A program made the translations under genes and the position numbers. A DNA stretch of 64,000 nucleotides from positions 2,914,001 through 2,978,000 of the forward strand of contig NZ_CP091819.1 in assembly GCF_019740355.2 (NCBI RefSeq). The letters are read 5' to 3'. How positions within the stretch are numbered: the first letter of the stretch is position 1; each line of letters opens with the position of its first letter. Source of the DNA: Paracrocinitomix mangrovi (GTDB lineage Bacteria; Bacteroidota; Bacteroidia; Flavobacteriales_D; Crocinitomicaceae). Shown here piece after piece: positions 44,538 to 55,081 of the stretch. The notes under the pieces are model-generated. The model was not told the origin of the DNA and ran no database searches. It saw nothing but the letters and a program-made list of their open reading frames with translations.

Positions 44538-45674
44538 ATGCAATCTAAATTACCGGATGTAGGTACGACTATTTTTACTGTCATGTCTGCCCTAGCTAAT
44601 GAGCAAAATGCAATAAATCTATCCCAGGGTTTCCCTAATTTTCCTATTGATACGGTCCTTAAAGACTTCGTTAAAAAAGCGTTAGATGAGGAACAAGTAC
44701 AATATGCTCCAATGCCTGGCAGGTTAGATTTAAGGATAGCCATTGCACAGAAATTAGAATTGCAACATGCTAAAATATTTAATCCCGAAACTGAAATTAC
44801 AGTTACGGCCGGTGCAACTGAAGCTATTTATTCAATAATAGCGGCGGTAGTTTCAAAGGGTGATGAAGTTTTGATGTTTGATCCGGCTTATGATTGTTAT
44901 GATCCTTCAGTGAGATTAAACGGAGGTATTCCGGTACATTTAAAATTGAAGTTCCCCGATTTTAAAATTGATTGGAATGAAGTAAAAGATAAAATCAACT
45001 CCAAAACAAAACTTATAATGGTCAACAATCCGCACAATCCGGCCGGGAGTGTATGGGATGAATCAGACTTGAAAGCTTTAGAAGATATATGCAATAAGTA
45101 TCCTCATTTGTTGGTTTTGAGTGATGAGGTTTATGAGCACATACAATTTGATAATAATCACCAATCTGTTTTAAAAAGTGATTTATTGCGATCAAGAAGT
45201 TTTGTGACCTATAGTTTCGGAAAGACATTTCACGTTACAGGTTGGAAAATTGGTTACTGTATTGCACCGGCTGAATTGACAGTTGAAATGCGAAAAGTGC
45301 ATCAATTCAACGTTTTTTGTGTTAACAACACCATGCAGGCTGCACTAGCAGATTATTTGATTGGCTCAGATTCATGGCGTGGAATAGCCGATTTTTATAA
45401 TGATAAAAAGGCCTTATTCATGAATGGAATGAAACAGTCAAAATTCAAACCTTTAAAATGTGAGGGGACTTATTTTTGTTTATATGATTTTAGCGAAATA
45501 TCTTCTTTACCAGATGTTGAATTTGCAAAATGGATGACCATTGAACACAAAGTAGCATCTATTCCGGTATCTGTTTTTTATGAGGATAAAACGGACAATA
45601 AAGTGGTGAGATTTTGCTTTGCAAAAACTGATGACATGTTGATTAATGCAATAGACCGATTATGCAAGATTTAA
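44538..45674 (+). CDS. Methionine aminotransferase (class I/II)
   Basis: The product resembles E. coli YbdL and other methionine/glutamine aminotransferases: SKLPDVGTTIFTVMSALANEQNAINLSQGFPNF, YAPMPGRLDLR, TVTAGATEAIYSIIAA, NNPHNPAGSVW, SDEVYEHIQFD, the PLP lysine in SFGKTFHVTGWKIGY and the Arg in VVRFCFAKTDD. It transaminates 2-oxo-4-methylthiobutanoate, the last step of methionine salvage. I take the ATG at 44538 (MQSKLPDVG); 44520 and 44535 are in frame. It overlaps the omega-amidase gene by 13 bp. Confidence 0.9.
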   Translation: MQSKLPDVGTTIFTVMSALANEQNAINLSQGFPNFPIDTVLKDFVKKALDEEQVQYAPMPGRLDLRIAIAQKLELQHAKIFNPETEITVTAGATEAIYSIIAAVVSKGDEVLMFDPAYDCYDPSVRLNGGIPVHLKLKFPDFKIDWNEVKDKINSKTKLIMVNNPHNPAGSVWDESDLKALEDICNKYPHLLVLSDEVYEHIQFDNNHQSVLKSDLLRSRSFVTYSFGKTFHVTGWKIGYCIAPAELTVEMRKVHQFNVFCVNNTMQAALADYLIGSDSWRGIADFYNDKKALFMNGMKQSKFKPLKCEGTYFCLYDFSEISSLPDVEFAKWMTIEHKVASIPVSVFYEDKTDNKVVRFCFAKTDDMLINAIDRLCKI

Positions 45675-46456
45675 AAATAGCCATGGTTCAAACCCAACAA
45701 TTTTGGGAGGATAAAGAGAAAAATCTACAACACTTTGAAAAGCACTTCGTTCAAATTCCGGTTGGAGGAGCTGATCTTTTATTGTTGCCTGAAATGTTCA
45801 ATACCGGATTTACCATGAACGCTTCAAATATGGCTGAGGATATTGATGGTACTTCAATTAAATGGTTGCAGAAATGGGCAAAAGAGTTACAGATGCAAAT
45901 AGGAGCCTCTTTGATCATTAGAGAAAATGATAATTACTATAACAGGTTTGTTATTGTTTCAGAAAATGGGATTGAAACGTCTTACAATAAAAGGCATTTA
46001 TTTAGGATGGCAGATGAACAGTTACATTTTTCTCCAGGTACTGAAAGAGTAATATATGAGCTAAAAGGGTGGAAAATTTTGCTTCAGGTTTGTTATGATT
46101 TAAGGTTTCCGGTTTATTCAAGAAACAAAACCATTGGTGATAACAAAGAATATGATGCCGTTATATATATTGCTAATTGGCCTGAAAGGCGTAATAATGT
46201 TTGGAAGACACTTTTACAGGCAAGGGCAATTGAAAATCAAGTTTATTGTATCGGAGTGAATCGAGTTGGGATTGATGGCAATGATATTTCTTACACTGGG
46301 GATAGCATGTTTATTGATCCATGGGGTAATGTTGAAGCCAAATTTTCAGAAAACACTGAAATAGTGAAAATATTAACAATGGATTATCATAAAATTAACG
46401 ACATCACCAATCGCTTCCCTGCCTTTAAAGATGCGGATTCCTGGAGTTTAACATGA
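45662..46456 (+). CDS. Omega-amidase (YafV-type carbon-nitrogen hydrolase)
   Basis: A nitrilase-superfamily enzyme with the Glu-Lys-Cys triad visible in LLLPEMFNTGF, SYNKRHLF and QVCYDLRFPV. The remaining blocks (IANWPERRNNVWKTLLQARAIENQVYCIGVNRVG, FIDPWGNV) match YafV/NIT2 omega-amidases, which hydrolyse alpha-ketoglutaramate and thereby pull a glutamine-dependent transaminase forward. Translational overlap with the aminotransferase supports that pairing (glutamine transaminase-omega-amidase route of methionine salvage). The length (264) is normal. Confidence 0.92.
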   Translation: MQDLKIAMVQTQQFWEDKEKNLQHFEKHFVQIPVGGADLLLLPEMFNTGFTMNASNMAEDIDGTSIKWLQKWAKELQMQIGASLIIRENDNYYNRFVIVSENGIETSYNKRHLFRMADEQLHFSPGTERVIYELKGWKILLQVCYDLRFPVYSRNKTIGDNKEYDAVIYIANWPERRNNVWKTLLQARAIENQVYCIGVNRVGIDGNDISYTGDSMFIDPWGNVEAKFSENTEIVKILTMDYHKINDITNRFPAFKDADSWSLT

Positions 46457-46472
46457 TCAATCAACCAATTAT

Positions 46473-46502
46473 ACCGTTCAGTAGATAAAAAATACCGTTG
46501 AG
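46473..46502 (+). promoter_or_regulatory. LytTR-type direct-repeat operator
   Basis: ACCGTTCAG (46473-46481) and ACCGTTGAG (46494-46502) both fit the LytTR half-site [TA][AC][CA]GTTN[AG][TG] at every position and are separated by exactly 12 bp. The longer copies ATACCGTTCAGT and ATACCGTTGAGT agree at 11 of 12 bases. They lie upstream of a TATCTTAG box (46526-46533) in front of the T9SS cargo gene at 46565, where an activator would bind. Confidence 0.65.
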
Positions 46503-46564
46503 TCTCGCTCGATCTTTATTTTTAATATCTTAGAGCTCTAATAACTTTTAATTAAAGATTCAAA

Positions 46565-48433
46565 ATGAGAAAAGTATACTTATCTATGCTTTCAATCTTA
46601 TCTTCTGGTCTGTTAATGGCTCAGATGACACAAGAGACGAAAGTTTACGAATTGGCTTCGCCTGCTGATTTAGATCAAAACAGGCCAATGCCGGTTTTAG
46701 GTGCTAACAGAGCTCCTGACGATATAGTTTGGTCAGATGACTTTAGTACTACTTCAAACTGGAATGCTACTTATCCAACTACTGGTTTAGATCCTCAATT
46801 TTATGGATGGTCTATCGGAACCACTACAATGGGTTGGTATTTTGGAACATCTGGAGATATGGGAACTACTGGTAACTTCGCGAGATTTGTTAATGGTTCT
46901 CCTGCTACTCAGTCTAATCCAAACCCTTCAGATCCTGTATACGAAGGTGGACCTTACACATTGGAATATGTTGGAACACCTGTAGATTTATCTTCAGTTC
47001 CTGCACCACACCTTGAGTTTGAGCACTATGGAGCTAGATTTATTACGCTTCAAGCTGTTGAAGTTAGTACTGATGGTGGTACTACTTGGATTGAGGTAGG
47101 AAATAACAATGATATCGCACCTTTAACTTCAGGTGGTGGATCTGTTTATCCTAAACCTGAGACAAGAAGATTCAACATCACTTCTGCTATTACTGGTAAC
47201 CCGGCAAACGTAACATTCAGATTATTATGGGATGGTGCTCAAAACGGACCAAACATGAACTATGTTGAGTACGGATGGTTTGTTGATGATATCAGAGTTG
47301 TTGAAGGACACTCATATGATGCTGAAATCTTAACTGCAAACTTCGCTTCTGGTGCTGAGATGTTAGAGTACTATATGGTACCTACTACTCAAACTACTGG
47401 AATTGAGTTTTCTGGAAAAGTAAAAAATAACGGTGCTGCTACATTCACTGGACTTCACTTAGAAGCTACAGTTGATATGGGAGGTAACGTATTTACTGGA
47501 ACTTCAGCAAACGTTGATTTGCCTTCAGGTGATATCGATTCAATGGTAACTACAACTACTTTTACTCCTGCTGGAGGAATGGGAACTTATGATTTCCAAT
47601 GGGTATTTGTTGGAGACAATGCTGACACTTACAACAGTAACGATATTTTAACTGATGCAATTGAAGTTACAGAATATACTTATGCTAGAGACAATGGTGT
47701 AGCTACTGGATCTATCACAAACGTAACATCTAATACTGGTCAAGCAATGGGAATTGGTAACATCTTCGAAACTTTCGGAGCTGGTGTTATCGGTGCTGTT
47801 GATATCAATATTGGTTCTGCAACTTCAGGTGATATCATCTTTGCTAGAATCGACAAATGGGATGACGGTTTAGGTGAGTTCGTTTATGTTGCTCAAACTA
47901 GTGATCATTCATTAACTGCTTCGCAAACTAGTGGATGGGTTAAGTTATTCTTAGCTTCTCCTGTTACTGTTGCTGCAGGTGATGTTTACCTAATCACTGC
48001 TAACCACTACGGGGGTTCTCCAGAGGTTGCATTCTCATATGCTCAAGGTACTTATGATGGAACTGTTATTGGATACGTTGCTGACGGTTCATTATTCTCT
48101 TTATTAGATCCTGAAGCTGTTATGGTAAGAGCTGACATGAGAGATTTTACAGGAGTTGATCAATTTGAAGCTACTTTCAATATTGGACAAAACGTTCCAA
48201 ATCCATTTGATAACAACTCTATAATTAACTATACTTTAGCTGAGGCTGCAAACGTTAGTGTACAATTCACTGATATCTCAGGAAAAGTAGTTAAAGTTGT
48301 TGAGCAAGGAAGCCAAACTGCTGGATCATACCAAATCAATGTTGATGGAAATGATTTTGCAGAAGGAGTTTACTTCTACACTTTCACTATTGGTGATAAA
48401 CAAGTAACTAAAAGAATGGTGGTTACTAAGTAA
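46565..48433 (+). CDS. Secreted cleaved-adhesin-like protein with T9SS type A sorting domain
   Basis: A signal peptide (MRKVYLSMLSILSSGLLMAQ) is followed by a cleaved-adhesin/MAM-like lectin-type domain (~40-250: WSDDFSTTSNWNATYP, GWSIGTTTMGWYFGTSG, HLEFEHYGARFITLQAVEVSTDGGTTWIEV, WFVDDIRVVEG), an Ig-like middle region and a type A sorting domain at the end (IGQNVPNPFDNNSIINYTLAE, VSVQFTDISGKVVKVV, EGVYFYTFTIGDKQVTKRMVV). It should be exported by the T9SS to the surface or medium. It has a solitary promoter region with a LytTR-type site and a strong terminator. Codons look highly optimised, with repeated use of the same triplets, which suggests high expression. Confidence 0.9.
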   Translation: MRKVYLSMLSILSSGLLMAQMTQETKVYELASPADLDQNRPMPVLGANRAPDDIVWSDDFSTTSNWNATYPTTGLDPQFYGWSIGTTTMGWYFGTSGDMGTTGNFARFVNGSPATQSNPNPSDPVYEGGPYTLEYVGTPVDLSSVPAPHLEFEHYGARFITLQAVEVSTDGGTTWIEVGNNNDIAPLTSGGGSVYPKPETRRFNITSAITGNPANVTFRLLWDGAQNGPNMNYVEYGWFVDDIRVVEGHSYDAEILTANFASGAEMLEYYMVPTTQTTGIEFSGKVKNNGAATFTGLHLEATVDMGGNVFTGTSANVDLPSGDIDSMVTTTTFTPAGGMGTYDFQWVFVGDNADTYNSNDILTDAIEVTEYTYARDNGVATGSITNVTSNTGQAMGIGNIFETFGAGVIGAVDINIGSATSGDIIFARIDKWDDGLGEFVYVAQTSDHSLTASQTSGWVKLFLASPVTVAAGDVYLITANHYGGSPEVAFSYAQGTYDGTVIGYVADGSLFSLLDPEAVMVRADMRDFTGVDQFEATFNIGQNVPNPFDNNSIINYTLAEAANVSVQFTDISGKVVKVVEQGSQTAGSYQINVDGNDFAEGVYFYTFTIGDKQVTKRMVVTK

Positions 48434-48453: not shown

Positions 48454-48488
48454 AAACCCTGTTCGTCTTTGATGAACAGGGTTTTTTT
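48454..48488 (+). terminator. Intrinsic terminator after the T9SS cargo gene
   Basis: AAACCCTGTTC (48454-48464) pairs with GAACAGGGTTT (48474-48484), with three further inner pairs, followed by a T run to 48488. It is shared with the converging 48495-48755 gene. Confidence 0.9.
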
Positions 48489-48904: not shown

Positions 48905-51900
48905 ATGTTTAAAAATCTGGCTATCACCCTATTAAGTTTTTTAATTGTTTCAATTTCATTTGGACAAAAAGATGATCCATTTTACAATAGTAAATGGGCT
49001 AAAATAGACTCTCTTCAAAGAAAGGGATTGTACCGAATGGCTTTGTCTGAAGTACATGAAGTCTTTGACTACTCAACTAAAAATCAACATCACAATCAGG
49101 TAATTAAGTCTGTATTGTACGAGTTAAAATACAATACATACCTTGAAGAAGATGATTACGTATTAGGTATCTCCAGACTTGATGAACTAATCAAAACTGC
49201 TCCATCACCTTCAAAAGAAATTTTGCACTCCCTGACAGCAGAAGTCTATTGGGGATATTATTCCTCTAATCAATGGAAGTTTATTGAAAGAACGCATGTT
49301 GGTGAGGTTGATTTAAAAGATATACGAACCTGGGATTTGAAAAGAATAGCAGAAAAAGTAAGAGATCATTATGTACTCTCACTAATGAATGCTGAAAAAT
49401 CAAAGTCAGAGTTAATAAAAAACTACAAAGAGATTGCTTCTTATACTGACAGAGATGAAGCCGAGAAAATGAGACCAACGCTCTATGATTTCTTAGCATA
49501 TAGAGCATTAGACTTTTTTAGATATCAAAATTTCAACGTTCCAGGTCCTGGTAAATCTTTTATTATAGATAATCCAAGGTATTTAGCCAACAATAGCACA
49601 TTTATTGCTCTTGCTAACAGCACTTTAACTGTGGATTCATTGAACACTAAATTTTATGCTGTAAAAATATTTGGGGAGCTAACTGAATTTCACCAAAAAA
49701 AGGACGATAAAAATGCACTTTTTTATGCTGAACTTGAAAGACTAAAATTCATCAGAACAAACGCAGTATTTGAGGACGTTGACAAATCATATTATACTGC
49801 ATTAGAAAGACTTGTTCAACAATATCAAAAAGAAGATTATTCTAGTGAAGGGCTGTATGAAATGGCAAAATATCATTCAGATAAAGCCGGAACCTACAAT
49901 TATTTTGGGGACACAACTTATCATTGGAATTACAAAATTGCAATGCAGATTTGTGATAAAAGCATCAAATTGTTTCCTAATGCATATGGTTCAGAACAAT
50001 GTAAAGCACTAAAAACAAGTATCACATATAAAGAACTTAATTTAAATGCTGAACAAGCCGCTCCCGTTAAAGAAGCATCTCTATTAAATATCAGCTACAG
50101 AAATGTAAATAAACTTTATTACAAAATAGTTCCATATAACTATGATAAGTTGAATAATCAAAAAGTTGATTACAACAAACTCCTTAGTGATTTAAGAAAA
50201 ACAAAAGGTCTTTTTGAAAAGGAAATTACTTTAAAAGATCCGGGAGATTATCAAGCACATACTACTGAGATTGAAGTTCCTGGACTAGATAATGGGCATT
50301 ACTTCTTAATTGTCTCTTCACATCCTCAGTATAGTGAAGATGGTGAAGCATTTAGCTATTGTTCATTTTGGTCAACAGATATTACTTATCAAATGAGGAA
50401 TCAAAGTGGTGAAAGAGACGTTTTGGTTTCAAATAGAAAAACAGGAGCGCCTTTGGCTGAAGCTAAAGCTATAGTGAGCTATCAAAAGTGGAATAGTTTG
50501 ATCCGTCAATATGAAAACAAAACGCTGGGGACATATACAACAGATCAAAATGGAGTTTTCTCTTTTAAACCTAAAGACGACTATTACAACTATTACATTG
50601 AGGTAAAACATAATGGTCAGGTGTTTGCTCCTAATGCAAGCCATTATGCTTACAGAGATTATCAGTATACACAAAGAACCTATACTCATTTCTTTACTGA
50701 CAGAACTATTTATAGACCAGGCCAAACCATCTATTATAAGGGAATTGTAGTGGATCAGGATGAGCATGATCGTCAACTGAAAAAGAACTATAAAACAACT
50801 GTGTATTTCTATGATGTAAACTCTCAGGAAATTGCGCATCAAGAAGTAACTACGAATGAGTTTGGATCTTTTTCTGGCGAATTCACAGCTCCTTTTGGAG
50901 TTTTAACCGGACAAATGAGAATTCAGGATACTTATGGAAGCAAATACTTCAGAGTAGAAGAATATAAACGTCCTAAGTTTAATGTTACCATGAATCCAAT
51001 TGAAGGTGAGTTTCAGTTGAACGACAACATTGAAGCAACCGGATTTGCACAGGCTTTTGCAGGTAATTTTATTGACGGAGCAGAAGTTAAGTACCGTGTA
51101 ACTAGGACAACATCTTATTATGGATGGTATAGCTGGTATTATTGGAGACCTTATGAGGCGGCTAAAGAAATTGCTTCAGGAAATTTAACTACTGATGAAA
51201 ATGGAGAGTTCAAAATACCATTTGAAGCCATACCGGATATGTCGGCTAATAAAAAGAATTTACCGGTATTTACCTATACAATTACAGTTGATGTAACTGA
51301 CATTAATGGGGAAACACATACCGGATCATCTACGGTGATGGTGGGATATCAAAGTTTGAAATTGAACAACAACTTAAGAGCCGATATCAATGGAGAGAAA
51401 GACTTTATGCTTGAGCTTTCTACCACCAATCTTAACGGTCAGGATGTAGATGCTCAGGGGACTGTAGTTATTGAAAAATTGAAAGGACCTGAACATCCTC
51501 TTTACAGCCGCATGTGGCAACAACCTGATTTACCTTTAATGTCAGAAAGTGATTTTAAAGCCAAGTTTTCTCATATGGTTTATAAGGATGAGAATAACCA
51601 GTACAATTGGGATGTTGATAAAGAGGTTTTAAAAATGAATTTTGACACTAAAATCACTGATTCAATTGAGATTAAAAATCTTAAAAAGTGGCAGCCTGGA
51701 GTGTATAAATATACGGCCACCGCAAAAGACAAAAATGGAGTAGAGGTGAAAGATGTGGCATTCTTCACGCTTTTTAAACCATCAGCAAAAGTGTCACCTA
51801 CAAATGATGTTTTTTGGTTGAAAGAACTCAAGTCAAAAGCAGAGCCGGGTGATGTTGTGAGCGTATTGTTAGGAACTGCTGAGGATGAAATATTAGTAAA

Positions 51901-54900
51901 CTACAGTATCGAGGTGAAAAACAAAATTGTTTCATCAGATATCGTAACGCTTAAAAAAGAACAAAAGAAACTTGATTTTAAAGTTACTGAAGAGCACAGA
52001 GGAAATTTCACAGTTCACTTTTCAGTAGTAAAAAATAATAGATCATTTAGCAGATCTGTTACGGTTATTGTTCCGCATACAAATAAGGAATTGGATCTTG
52101 AATTTTCAACTTTCCGAAATAAATTATTACCGGGTCAGGATGAAGAATGGACAATGACCATTAAAAATAAAAACGGAGAAGGAGCAATGGCGGAATTGTT
52201 GGCAACAATGTATGATGCTAGTTTAGATGAATTGTATTCTCCAAATGCGTTTTATTTTAATGTATGGAGAACTTATTACGGAAGTAAAGGTTGGCAAAAC
52301 CCTCAAGGAATTTCAAGCTCGTACAGTAGAAATTATCATCACGATTGGAATCCTTACTACTACTACCCATCTAGATACTTTCCTAGCTTGAATTATCATG
52401 GTTATAGCACCTATTATTATGGAAGATATTATTCATATGGGTGGTATGATGATTTTGCTGACGGAGCAGTTGCAGAAGGTGATATGGAGATGGAAGAGTC
52501 TGTAGCAATGGATGAAGATATCACACTATCAAGAAAAGATGTTGCAAGAAACGGAAATGCTAAAACCACAACTGGTTCATTTGCTGCAGTAACTGAAGTA
52601 GCAGATGCTCCAATGGGAGGTGCAGATAAGAATTTGGAGCAGCAAAATATGCAGGGAATTCTCGACAATTTGGAGCCGGATGAAAGAGAAAGAAAAGAAG
52701 TTGATTTATCAGGAGTAAAAGTGAGATCTAACTTCAATGAAACAGCTTTCTTTTATCCTCAATTGTTGACAGATAAAGATGGAAACATTAAAATCAAATT
52801 CACTATTCCAGAATCTCTAACTAAATGGAAGTTTATTGGGATGGCGCATACGCAAGATCTTAGTACTGGAATGATCGAAAAAGAAGTGGTGACACAAAAA
52901 GATTTAATGGTAGTTCCAAATGCGCCAAGATTTTTAAGAGAAGGTGACAAAATCACTTTATCTGCAAAAATTTCAAACATTTCTGATAAAGATTTAGAAG
53001 GGGCAATTCAGTTGGATTTATTGAATCCGTTTGATGATAAATTGATTGATGATAAGTTCAAACACAAAGGAAAACAATTGCCTTTTAAAGTGGATAAAGG
53101 AAAAAGTACATCAGTAAGTTGGACCATCAATGTACCTTATGAAACGTCAACTGTAAAGTACAGATTTGTAGCCGCAGCAGGAGATTTCTCAGATGGAGAA
53201 GAAAGCGTTTTACCTATTTTATCTAATAGAATGTTGGTGACAGAATCTATGCCTATGCCAATTAGAGGTAAACAAAGCAAAACATTCAAGTTTGATAAGT
53301 TAGTGAACAACAAAAGCAAGACGCTTAAACATCACAGATATACTGTTGAATTCACTTCTAATCCGGCTTGGTATGCATTGCAAGCAATGCCATATATGAT
53401 GGAGTATCCGCATGAGTGTGCTGAACAAACATTTACCAGATATTATTCAAATGCCATTGCAGCTCATGTATTGAATTCAAATCCTAAAATCAGAGAAATC
53501 ATCAACAAATGGGGAGAAGATTCACCTGATGCTTTTTTATCAAACTTGCAGAAAAATCAGGAGTTAAAAGCAGTAATGTTAGAGGAAACTCCTTGGGTAT
53601 TAAATGCCAAAAGTGAAGAAGAGACAAAACGTAATCTTGCCATTTTGTTAGATATGGAAAGAATGACCAAAGAGTTGGATAAAGCACTTGGTAAGACAAT
53701 TAAAAATCAAGCAGCAAATGGAGGTTGGCCTTGGTTCCCAGGAATGAGAGAAAGCAGATATATCACTCAACATATCATTACTGGAATGGGACACCTGGAT
53801 CATCTTGGAATTTCAAGTGTAAAAGAAGACAGAAGAGTTTGGAATATGATTAAAAAAGGTGTTGACTATTTAGATGGTGAAATTGTTGAAGATTATCGTT
53901 TAGCAAAAAAATACGATCCTGATTATGAGAAGAATCAGCACATTGGATATTCTCAAATTCAATACTTATATGCTAGATCATATTTTAAAGATATCTCAAT
54001 GAACAACAACACTAAAGAAGCTGTTCAGTATTACAAAGATCAGGCAATCAAATTCTGGTTAAACTTCAATATTTATGGTGAAGGTATGCTGGCTTTAGCT
54101 GCGCACAGATTTGAGATGAAAGATTTAGCAACTGATATTGTAAAATCATTAAAAGACAGATCTATTCATCATGAAGAATTTGGAATGTACTGGAAAGAAT
54201 ATCAAATAGGATATTACTGGTATCAAGCTCCAATTGAAACACAAGCATTAATGATTGAGATGTTTGATGAAGTAACAGATGATCAAGAGAGTGTTGAAGA
54301 TTTGAAAGTTTGGTTGCTGAAACAAAAGCAAACTACTCATTGGAAAACCACCAAGCAAACTACAGAAGCAGTATACGCTTTATTGTTAAAAGGAACAGAT
54401 TTGTTGGCTTCAGATGAATTGGTTCAAGTAGTTGTTGGGGATAAACCAATTGAATATGTAGATAAATTGGTTAAAGATGATCCATACAAAGTAAAACCAG
54501 AAGCAGGAACAGGTTATTTTAAAACAGCCTGGAAAGGTGAAAATGTAGTGCCAAAAATGGGCGATATAAAAGTCACTAAAAAAGATGACGGAGTTGCTTG
54601 GGGTGCAGCATACTGGCAGTACTTTGAAGATTTGGACAAAATCACTTATGCAGAAACAAATCTGAAATTAGAAAAGGATTTATTCCTCATCAATCTTACA
54701 AAAGAAGGTGAAGAATTGGTTCCTGTCAATGAGAACAACGAGTTAAAAGTAGGTGATAAAATGCGCGTAAGAATTGAATTGAGAACAGATCGCAATTTAG
54801 AATACGTTCACATGAAAGATATGAGAGCATCCGGATTTGAGCCGATCAATGTATTGTCAACGTACAAATATCGTGATGGCCTGGGCTATTATGAGGCTAC

Positions 54901-55081
54901 CAAAGATGCAGCGACTCATTTCTTCTTTGACTACATACCTAAAGGAACTTATGTTTTTGAGTACGATTTAAGAGTACAACACAAGGGAGACATGTCAAAT
55001 GGTATTGCTACAATACAATGTATGTATGCACCTGAATTCACTTCACACTCAGATGGAATTAGGGTCCACGTAAAAGAATAA
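48905..55081 (+). CDS. Alpha-2-macroglobulin family protein with thioester motif
   Basis: Signal peptide MFKNLAITLLSFLIVSISFGQ with no lipobox. Helical N-terminal region (~25-360), then MG domains: DRTIYRPGQTIYYKG (~600) and FRVEEYKRPKFNVTMN (~690) are classic A2M_N parts. A Tyr/Gly/Ser-rich, then Asp/Glu-rich segment (~1115-1275) lies just before NFNETAFFYPQLLTDKDGNI...TESLTKWKFIGMAH-like residues (ANA/MG7), i.e. at the bait-region position. The thioester motif CAEQ is at 1505-1508 (EYPHECAEQTF) and the TED domain follows (AANGGWPWFPG). Such proteins trap attacking proteases in the periplasm. It is longer than E. coli YfhM (~1650). No pbpC gene is adjacent. Confidence 0.92.
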   Translation: MFKNLAITLLSFLIVSISFGQKDDPFYNSKWAKIDSLQRKGLYRMALSEVHEVFDYSTKNQHHNQVIKSVLYELKYNTYLEEDDYVLGISRLDELIKTAPSPSKEILHSLTAEVYWGYYSSNQWKFIERTHVGEVDLKDIRTWDLKRIAEKVRDHYVLSLMNAEKSKSELIKNYKEIASYTDRDEAEKMRPTLYDFLAYRALDFFRYQNFNVPGPGKSFIIDNPRYLANNSTFIALANSTLTVDSLNTKFYAVKIFGELTEFHQKKDDKNALFYAELERLKFIRTNAVFEDVDKSYYTALERLVQQYQKEDYSSEGLYEMAKYHSDKAGTYNYFGDTTYHWNYKIAMQICDKSIKLFPNAYGSEQCKALKTSITYKELNLNAEQAAPVKEASLLNISYRNVNKLYYKIVPYNYDKLNNQKVDYNKLLSDLRKTKGLFEKEITLKDPGDYQAHTTEIEVPGLDNGHYFLIVSSHPQYSEDGEAFSYCSFWSTDITYQMRNQSGERDVLVSNRKTGAPLAEAKAIVSYQKWNSLIRQYENKTLGTYTTDQNGVFSFKPKDDYYNYYIEVKHNGQVFAPNASHYAYRDYQYTQRTYTHFFTDRTIYRPGQTIYYKGIVVDQDEHDRQLKKNYKTTVYFYDVNSQEIAHQEVTTNEFGSFSGEFTAPFGVLTGQMRIQDTYGSKYFRVEEYKRPKFNVTMNPIEGEFQLNDNIEATGFAQAFAGNFIDGAEVKYRVTRTTSYYGWYSWYYWRPYEAAKEIASGNLTTDENGEFKIPFEAIPDMSANKKNLPVFTYTITVDVTDINGETHTGSSTVMVGYQSLKLNNNLRADINGEKDFMLELSTTNLNGQDVDAQGTVVIEKLKGPEHPLYSRMWQQPDLPLMSESDFKAKFSHMVYKDENNQYNWDVDKEVLKMNFDTKITDSIEIKNLKKWQPGVYKYTATAKDKNGVEVKDVAFFTLFKPSAKVSPTNDVFWLKELKSKAEPGDVVSVLLGTAEDEILVNYSIEVKNKIVSSDIVTLKKEQKKLDFKVTEEHRGNFTVHFSVVKNNRSFSRSVTVIVPHTNKELDLEFSTFRNKLLPGQDEEWTMTIKNKNGEGAMAELLATMYDASLDELYSPNAFYFNVWRTYYGSKGWQNPQGISSSYSRNYHHDWNPYYYYPSRYFPSLNYHGYSTYYYGRYYSYGWYDDFADGAVAEGDMEMEESVAMDEDITLSRKDVARNGNAKTTTGSFAAVTEVADAPMGGADKNLEQQNMQGILDNLEPDERERKEVDLSGVKVRSNFNETAFFYPQLLTDKDGNIKIKFTIPESLTKWKFIGMAHTQDLSTGMIEKEVVTQKDLMVVPNAPRFLREGDKITLSAKISNISDKDLEGAIQLDLLNPFDDKLIDDKFKHKGKQLPFKVDKGKSTSVSWTINVPYETSTVKYRFVAAAGDFSDGEESVLPILSNRMLVTESMPMPIRGKQSKTFKFDKLVNNKSKTLKHHRYTVEFTSNPAWYALQAMPYMMEYPHECAEQTFTRYYSNAIAAHVLNSNPKIREIINKWGEDSPDAFLSNLQKNQELKAVMLEETPWVLNAKSEEETKRNLAILLDMERMTKELDKALGKTIKNQAANGGWPWFPGMRESRYITQHIITGMGHLDHLGISSVKEDRRVWNMIKKGVDYLDGEIVEDYRLAKKYDPDYEKNQHIGYSQIQYLYARSYFKDISMNNNTKEAVQYYKDQAIKFWLNFNIYGEGMLALAAHRFEMKDLATDIVKSLKDRSIHHEEFGMYWKEYQIGYYWYQAPIETQALMIEMFDEVTDDQESVEDLKVWLLKQKQTTHWKTTKQTTEAVYALLLKGTDLLASDELVQVVVGDKPIEYVDKLVKDDPYKVKPEAGTGYFKTAWKGENVVPKMGDIKVTKKDDGVAWGAAYWQYFEDLDKITYAETNLKLEKDLFLINLTKEGEELVPVNENNELKVGDKMRVRIELRTDRNLEYVHMKDMRASGFEPINVLSTYKYRDGLGYYEATKDAATHFFFDYIPKGTYVFEYDLRVQHKGDMSNGIATIQCMYAPEFTSHSDGIRVHVKE

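Follow-up and report, generated by a model that had tools for sequence, protein, structure and literature searches.

We analysed a 64,000-nucleotide stretch of the Paracrocinitomix mangrovi genome (contig NZ_CP091819.1, positions 2,914,001 to 2,978,000; hereafter the window) and found two 9-mers, ACCGTTCAG and ACCGTTGAG, in tandem directly upstream of the putative promoter of a gene for a cargo protein of the type IX secretion system (T9SS). Because the pair is kept before the same gene in several related genera, this double signal is very probably a real control switch. Judged from its sequence, the site is probably the operator of a LytTR-domain response regulator, which would recruit RNA polymerase to the cargo gene promoter. 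An earlier note on this DNA had described the two 9-mers and their 12-bp gap, and had proposed that a LytTR response regulator controls the gene. We confirmed both the repeats and the gap; the LytTR-type operator is supported by its sequence, spacing and conservation, whereas we infer its regulator, the sign of the control and a two-component signal.

Conservation of the tandem motif

The two half-sites have the same orientation, are separated by 12 bp, and fit the half-site consensus [TA][AC][CA]GTTN[AG][TG] at every position. A pair matching this consensus occurs once in the window (46473-46502), with 0.01 matches expected from shuffled sequence. We gathered the intergenic regions between the upstream nitrilase gene and the T9SS gene from 77 genomes of the family, and scored them by their matches to two ACCGTT hexamers (maximum 12, threshold at least 10). 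At an offset of 21 bp, 27 of the 77 promoters reached at least 10/12, and the remaining offsets between 12 and 35 yielded 0 to 11 promoters, mostly 0 to 4. Perfect or near-perfect sites were observed in the window's own genome, in the examined genomes of genus g10 throughout, and in g20 and g23. Another species of the window's genus carries a 10/12 site 64-65 bp from the ATG, as in the window, and the g10 sites lie 61-68 bp from it; in g18 the site is inverted and mostly 52-57 bp from the ATG. In congeners the register is retained although the site is partly decayed, and no site was found in the g22 promoters among the 77 regions. A comparison of orthologous upstream regions had been suggested in the earlier note, and its outcome was positive: the half-sites are kept in other genera in the same 21-bp register and at a similar distance from the start codon.

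The same motif is shared by promoters of unrelated genes in the family. Among the orthologues of a LytTR response-regulator gene linked to a Reg_prop protein, the tandem reaches the same threshold in 20 of about 70 promoters, again at offset 21. A lipoprotein gene, unrelated to both the T9SS and the LytTR genes, has it by this threshold in 10 of 28 promoters, in each case inverted and at a distance of 36-54 bp from the ATG. ACCGTT outperformed all 179 permutations of its letters in all three promoter sets; permuted hexamers averaged about 1.4, 1.3 and 0.4 promoters (T9SS, LytTR and lipoprotein sets, respectively), and the runners-up were mostly register shifts of the same motif. Across the three sets, 21 was the only offset clearly enriched in the relatives.

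Where exact sites in other members of the family are intergenic, they are typically found 65-91 bp ahead of a start codon, and the genes behind them encode TonB receptors, a GEVED/fn3/MAM surface protein, an M43 T9SS protease and an ABC protein. In several genomes (L109, L115, L118, L072, L106) the operator stands about 40-85 bp before the annotated start of TonB-dependent receptor genes. The lipoprotein family (...SCETDFSLNGDY...PVVFGLLDH...) has no match in Pfam or NCBIfam, and the name DUF4249, which neither database supports, was dropped. Its promoters carry the operator in g1, g8, g11, g12, g20 and g23, and in the window's own genome (L324) the operator has decayed.

The site is also distinct within its own genome (one contig, 4.37 Mb). 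The exact ACCGTT-N15-ACCGTT tandem has a single copy, that of the window, where about 0.3 are expected per genome (an estimate from base composition). With a matrix built without the window's genus, the site scored 30.9 bits against 12.6 for the next best position in the window; elsewhere in the genome, over about 120 kb that were scored, the best value was 15.9, at the lipoprotein promoter itself. The other copies with one mismatch are nearly all intragenic and low-scoring, and only one stands out. This second strong site, ACCGTTAAATCAATAAAAGCTACCATT (28.9 bits, minus strand, G000:C1:802895-802921, or L135 1397-1423), is intergenic, with the gene for an extracytoplasmic function (ECF) sigma factor 198 bp downstream and a uvrA-like gene divergent. 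The earlier note had advised a search for further copies; the exact tandem is confined to the window, and one other strong copy lies before the ECF sigma factor gene.

Likeness to LytTR operators and candidate regulators

The consensus of 42 non-redundant sites from the family is T-ACCGTT-N-A-N-T-N-A-A-T...T-ACCGTT-N-A. Positions 1-6 and 8 of the half-site agree with the LytTR consensus, and the A at position 8 (93% and 86% in the two halves), which that consensus predicts, had not been used for selection. LytTR regulators generally bind repeats of 9-11 nt with spacers of 11-13 nt (PMC4847170). The predicted operator resembles known LytTR direct-repeat operators in sequence and spacing, with two repeats of this length, a gap of 12 bp (the commonest in the 11-13 bp range) and agreement with the half-site consensus. 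Published sites, ACCACTTAC-12 bp-ACCACTTAC and ACCGCTTGT-12bp-ACCGCTTAT (PMC6193735), share the ACC..T.A core and the 12-bp gap with the family motif. They belong to the LytTR Regulatory System of Streptococcus mutans and others (HdrR, BrsR; PMC6193735), in which 9-nt direct repeats lie directly upstream of the promoter, as predicted here. However, the regulator of that system lacks a receiver and its gene shares an operon with that of a membrane inhibitor, while the candidates in this Bacteroidota family are receiver-LytTR response regulators with histidine kinases, and the leading one has an adjacent kinase gene. The AgrA operators of Staphylococcus aureus P2/P3 are likewise direct repeats bound by a LytTR response regulator and are centred near -60, similar to the predicted position of the site described here, but differ in sequence and promoter type (PMC4227749); we saw no quorum-sensing cassette here, and searched for none.

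As the earlier note had said, no LytTR gene lies in the window; the search of the genome that it called for identified 18, all outside the window. Numbers vary strongly across the family, from 1 in a g22 genome (G022) and 3 in a g12 genome (G012) to 17-21 in the examined g1 and g10 genomes. We traced three candidates over 200 genomes each: the LytTR protein linked to Reg_prop was found in 112, a very conserved LytTR protein in 120, and a BtsR-like LytS/LytTR pair in 112. Presence and absence did not single out the reader, since each candidate has site-bearing genomes without it, some of which are incomplete. The Reg_prop-linked protein is absent from G012, which has the lipoprotein site; the very conserved protein is absent from G007 (g7), which has a perfect site; and in G117, where an 11/12 site precedes the Reg_prop-linked LytTR gene, no BtsR-like pair was found. 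Fisher tests of co-occurrence between sites and candidates did not separate the three. Autoregulation within the genus did not identify the reader, with an intergenic site of at least 10/12 at 0 of the 18 LytTR loci of the genome and 0 of 30 in g10. A sequence search with one of the candidates against solved structures gave only receiver-domain matches among the matches listed.

Among the candidates, the one most likely to read the site is the conserved receiver-LytTR protein whose gene adjoins that of a Reg_prop sensor kinase (G000:C1:2306833-2307609); we favour it on the ground that the site recurs in its own promoter in several genera. These repeats are present in g18, g20 and some others, and only degenerate ones are seen in the window's genome. 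In two g18 genomes, G134 and G106 (L108, L113), a perfect inverted operator lies about 115 bp before the LytTR response-regulator gene, which adjoins the gene for a 980-aa Reg_prop/Y_Y_Y histidine kinase. In G104 (L101), a site with perfect hexamers is flanked by the gene of a different LytTR regulator and by that of a second, response-regulator-like protein.

The main alternative, favoured by distribution and by likeness to BtsR, is that the operator is read by the BtsR-like LytS/LytTR pair (response regulator at G000:C1:697327-698040), with the Reg_prop-linked LytTR gene as one of its targets. BtsR (YehT) of Escherichia coli recognises ACC(G/A)CT(C/T)A repeats before btsT with 13 bp between them, so that the period is the same 21 bp as here. 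The pair is the only tested candidate found in every genus with good sites, including g12 and g7, and its regulator is the best of the three in the NCBIfam BtsR model (188 bits, against 135 and 60), although all fall below the cut-off of 246. The E. coli target differs too, being a pyruvate transporter and not a surface protein, and the fifth base is C there and T here. No site was seen in the promoters of the BtsR-like kinase operon (0 of 19, and they serve as a negative control), the pair was not found in G117, which has a site, and the co-occurrence statistics lend it no advantage. We consider this assignment somewhat unlikely, and note that the three candidates may share one DNA specificity.

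Mode of action and remaining explanations

If the Reg_prop-linked regulator, or another LytTR protein, reads the site, two molecules would occupy the two ACCGTTNA half-sites, which are 21 bp, or two helical turns, apart and therefore on one face of the DNA. The operator's downstream edge is about 23 bp upstream of the putative -7 box, in the place expected for a -33 element, and no good element of this kind is evident there. Because of this position and the lack of a good -33 element, the bound regulator would most likely act as an activator that recruits RNA polymerase. In the direct orientation the -7 box (assigned by eye) follows the site at 25-26, 35-37 or 46 bp, depending on the genus, with 59 bp in a single g23 genome; in the inverted orientation the distance is 24 bp. 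These distances appear to be roughly whole helical turns, which would fit an activator touching the polymerase.

The same location could suit a repressor that overlaps the -33 region and blocks RNA polymerase, the site ending 23 bp before the -7 box, and a LytTR-family repressor, PlnD, has been described (PMC2714321). However, the steps of about 10 bp between genera are those expected of an activator that must face the polymerase, and no good -33 element is evident. Repression is therefore unlikely in our estimate.

A regulator of another family might instead read the site, its resemblance to LytTR operators being a coincidence. Direct repeats serve other families as well, AraC-type proteins have half-sites about 21 bp apart, and co-occurrence with the sites is imperfect for each of the three LytTR candidates. 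Against this, LytTR sites (PMC6193735) have the same core, exactly this 12-bp gap and also the A at position 8, which played no part in selection, and sites adjoin LytTR genes in G134, G106 and G104. We regard a non-LytTR reader as distinctly improbable.

Several observations weigh against a conserved LytTR operator and its use as proposed. The consensus pair is not enriched in this genome (6 matches, compared to 14 for the reversed pattern as a control); the published consensus by itself therefore carries no weight, and its use as a genome-wide site finder was dropped. The nearest orthologue of the T9SS gene (63% identity) has a site of only 8/12, in which the register is visible but decayed (TACACTT / TACTGTA). 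The genomes counted are related, so that the counts do not represent independent events, with g10 alone contributing 12 of the 27 T9SS matches. At position 9 the family motif has no preference for T or G, unlike the [TG] of the LytTR consensus, and the inverted orientation in g18 and in the lipoprotein promoters is one that a direct-repeat activator would have to tolerate. A functionless chance match to a loose consensus, for which this lack of enrichment and the exact copies expected from composition could be cited, is refuted, unless the orthologous sites prove neutral, by the conservation of the register in orthologous and unrelated promoters, far above permuted hexamers, and is extremely improbable.

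Through the site, transcription of a T9SS cargo gene would be open to direct control. It is conceivable, and we propose it tentatively, that one LytTR response regulator runs a family-wide cell-surface regulon of T9SS cargo, TonB receptors, the lipoprotein and, in this genome, the ECF sigma factor, through the two-turn ACCGTTNA repeat in either orientation. If so, T9SS cargo would be under direct transcriptional control by a route distinct from PorXY-SigP. That system of Porphyromonas gingivalis (PMC5005315, PMC7712824) is similar in linking two-component control to T9SS function, but in the present case the predicted DNA-binding site is immediately in front of a cargo gene. Bacteroidota have many LytTR regulators, as the number in this genome illustrates, and we found no description of a LytTR operator from the phylum in the open full-text literature, where most subscription journals are absent. 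Both the regulon and its signal become directly testable through a conserved motif that has a handful of targets.

Putative promoter, putative controlled gene and neighbours

The positions of the site and of the surrounding features are compiled in Table 1.

Table 1. Coordinates of the predicted operator and neighbouring features in the window.
Feature	Position	Strand	Remarks
Half-site 1, LytTR-type, ACCGTTCAG	46473..46481	+	Register kept in orthologues
Half-site 2, LytTR-type, ACCGTTGAG	46494..46502	+	21 bp from half-site 1; register kept in orthologues
Entire predicted operator, including flanking T	46472..46502	+	30.9 bits; matrix from other genera only
Probable Bacteroidota -7 box, TATCTTAG	46526..46533	+	23 bp 3' of operator; assigned by eye
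Putative controlled gene, secreted all-beta protein, C-terminal T9SS type A sorting domain	46565..48433	+	622 aa
Intrinsic terminator stem-loop after the T9SS gene	48454..48484	+	
Carbon-nitrogen hydrolase (nitrilase-type) gene, upstream	45662..46456	+	Synteny marker for orthologous promoters; outside the switch

The TATCTTAG box reported downstream of the site was found, and the same box or TATCTTTA occurs at an equal distance from the site in two congeners. By itself the 8-mer is at chance level (2 found, 2.2 expected). No sigma-70 promoter of the -35/-10 type was found near the site, as expected for the phylum.

The putative controlled gene starts with an ATG at 46565, and its product has a signal-like N-terminus and, at residues 545-620, a T9SS type A sorting domain (PF18962, E 3e-10; TIGR04183). 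This bears out the secreted, T9SS-sorted protein of the earlier note, but not the label of a cleaved-adhesin-like protein, since no such domain was matched in Pfam. A structure model is all beta (pLDDT 77), and a fold search in the PDB gave only weak partial matches to unrelated multi-domain beta-rich proteins; the model therefore adds no specific function.

The clear terminator after the T9SS gene indicates that the gene is probably transcribed alone, and the operator therefore probably serves this gene only. Upstream, the carbon-nitrogen hydrolase gene ends 16 bp before the site. Downstream, the terminator and about 400 bp separate the T9SS gene from a gene at 48905-55081, which encodes a 2058-aa protein of the alpha-2-macroglobulin type.
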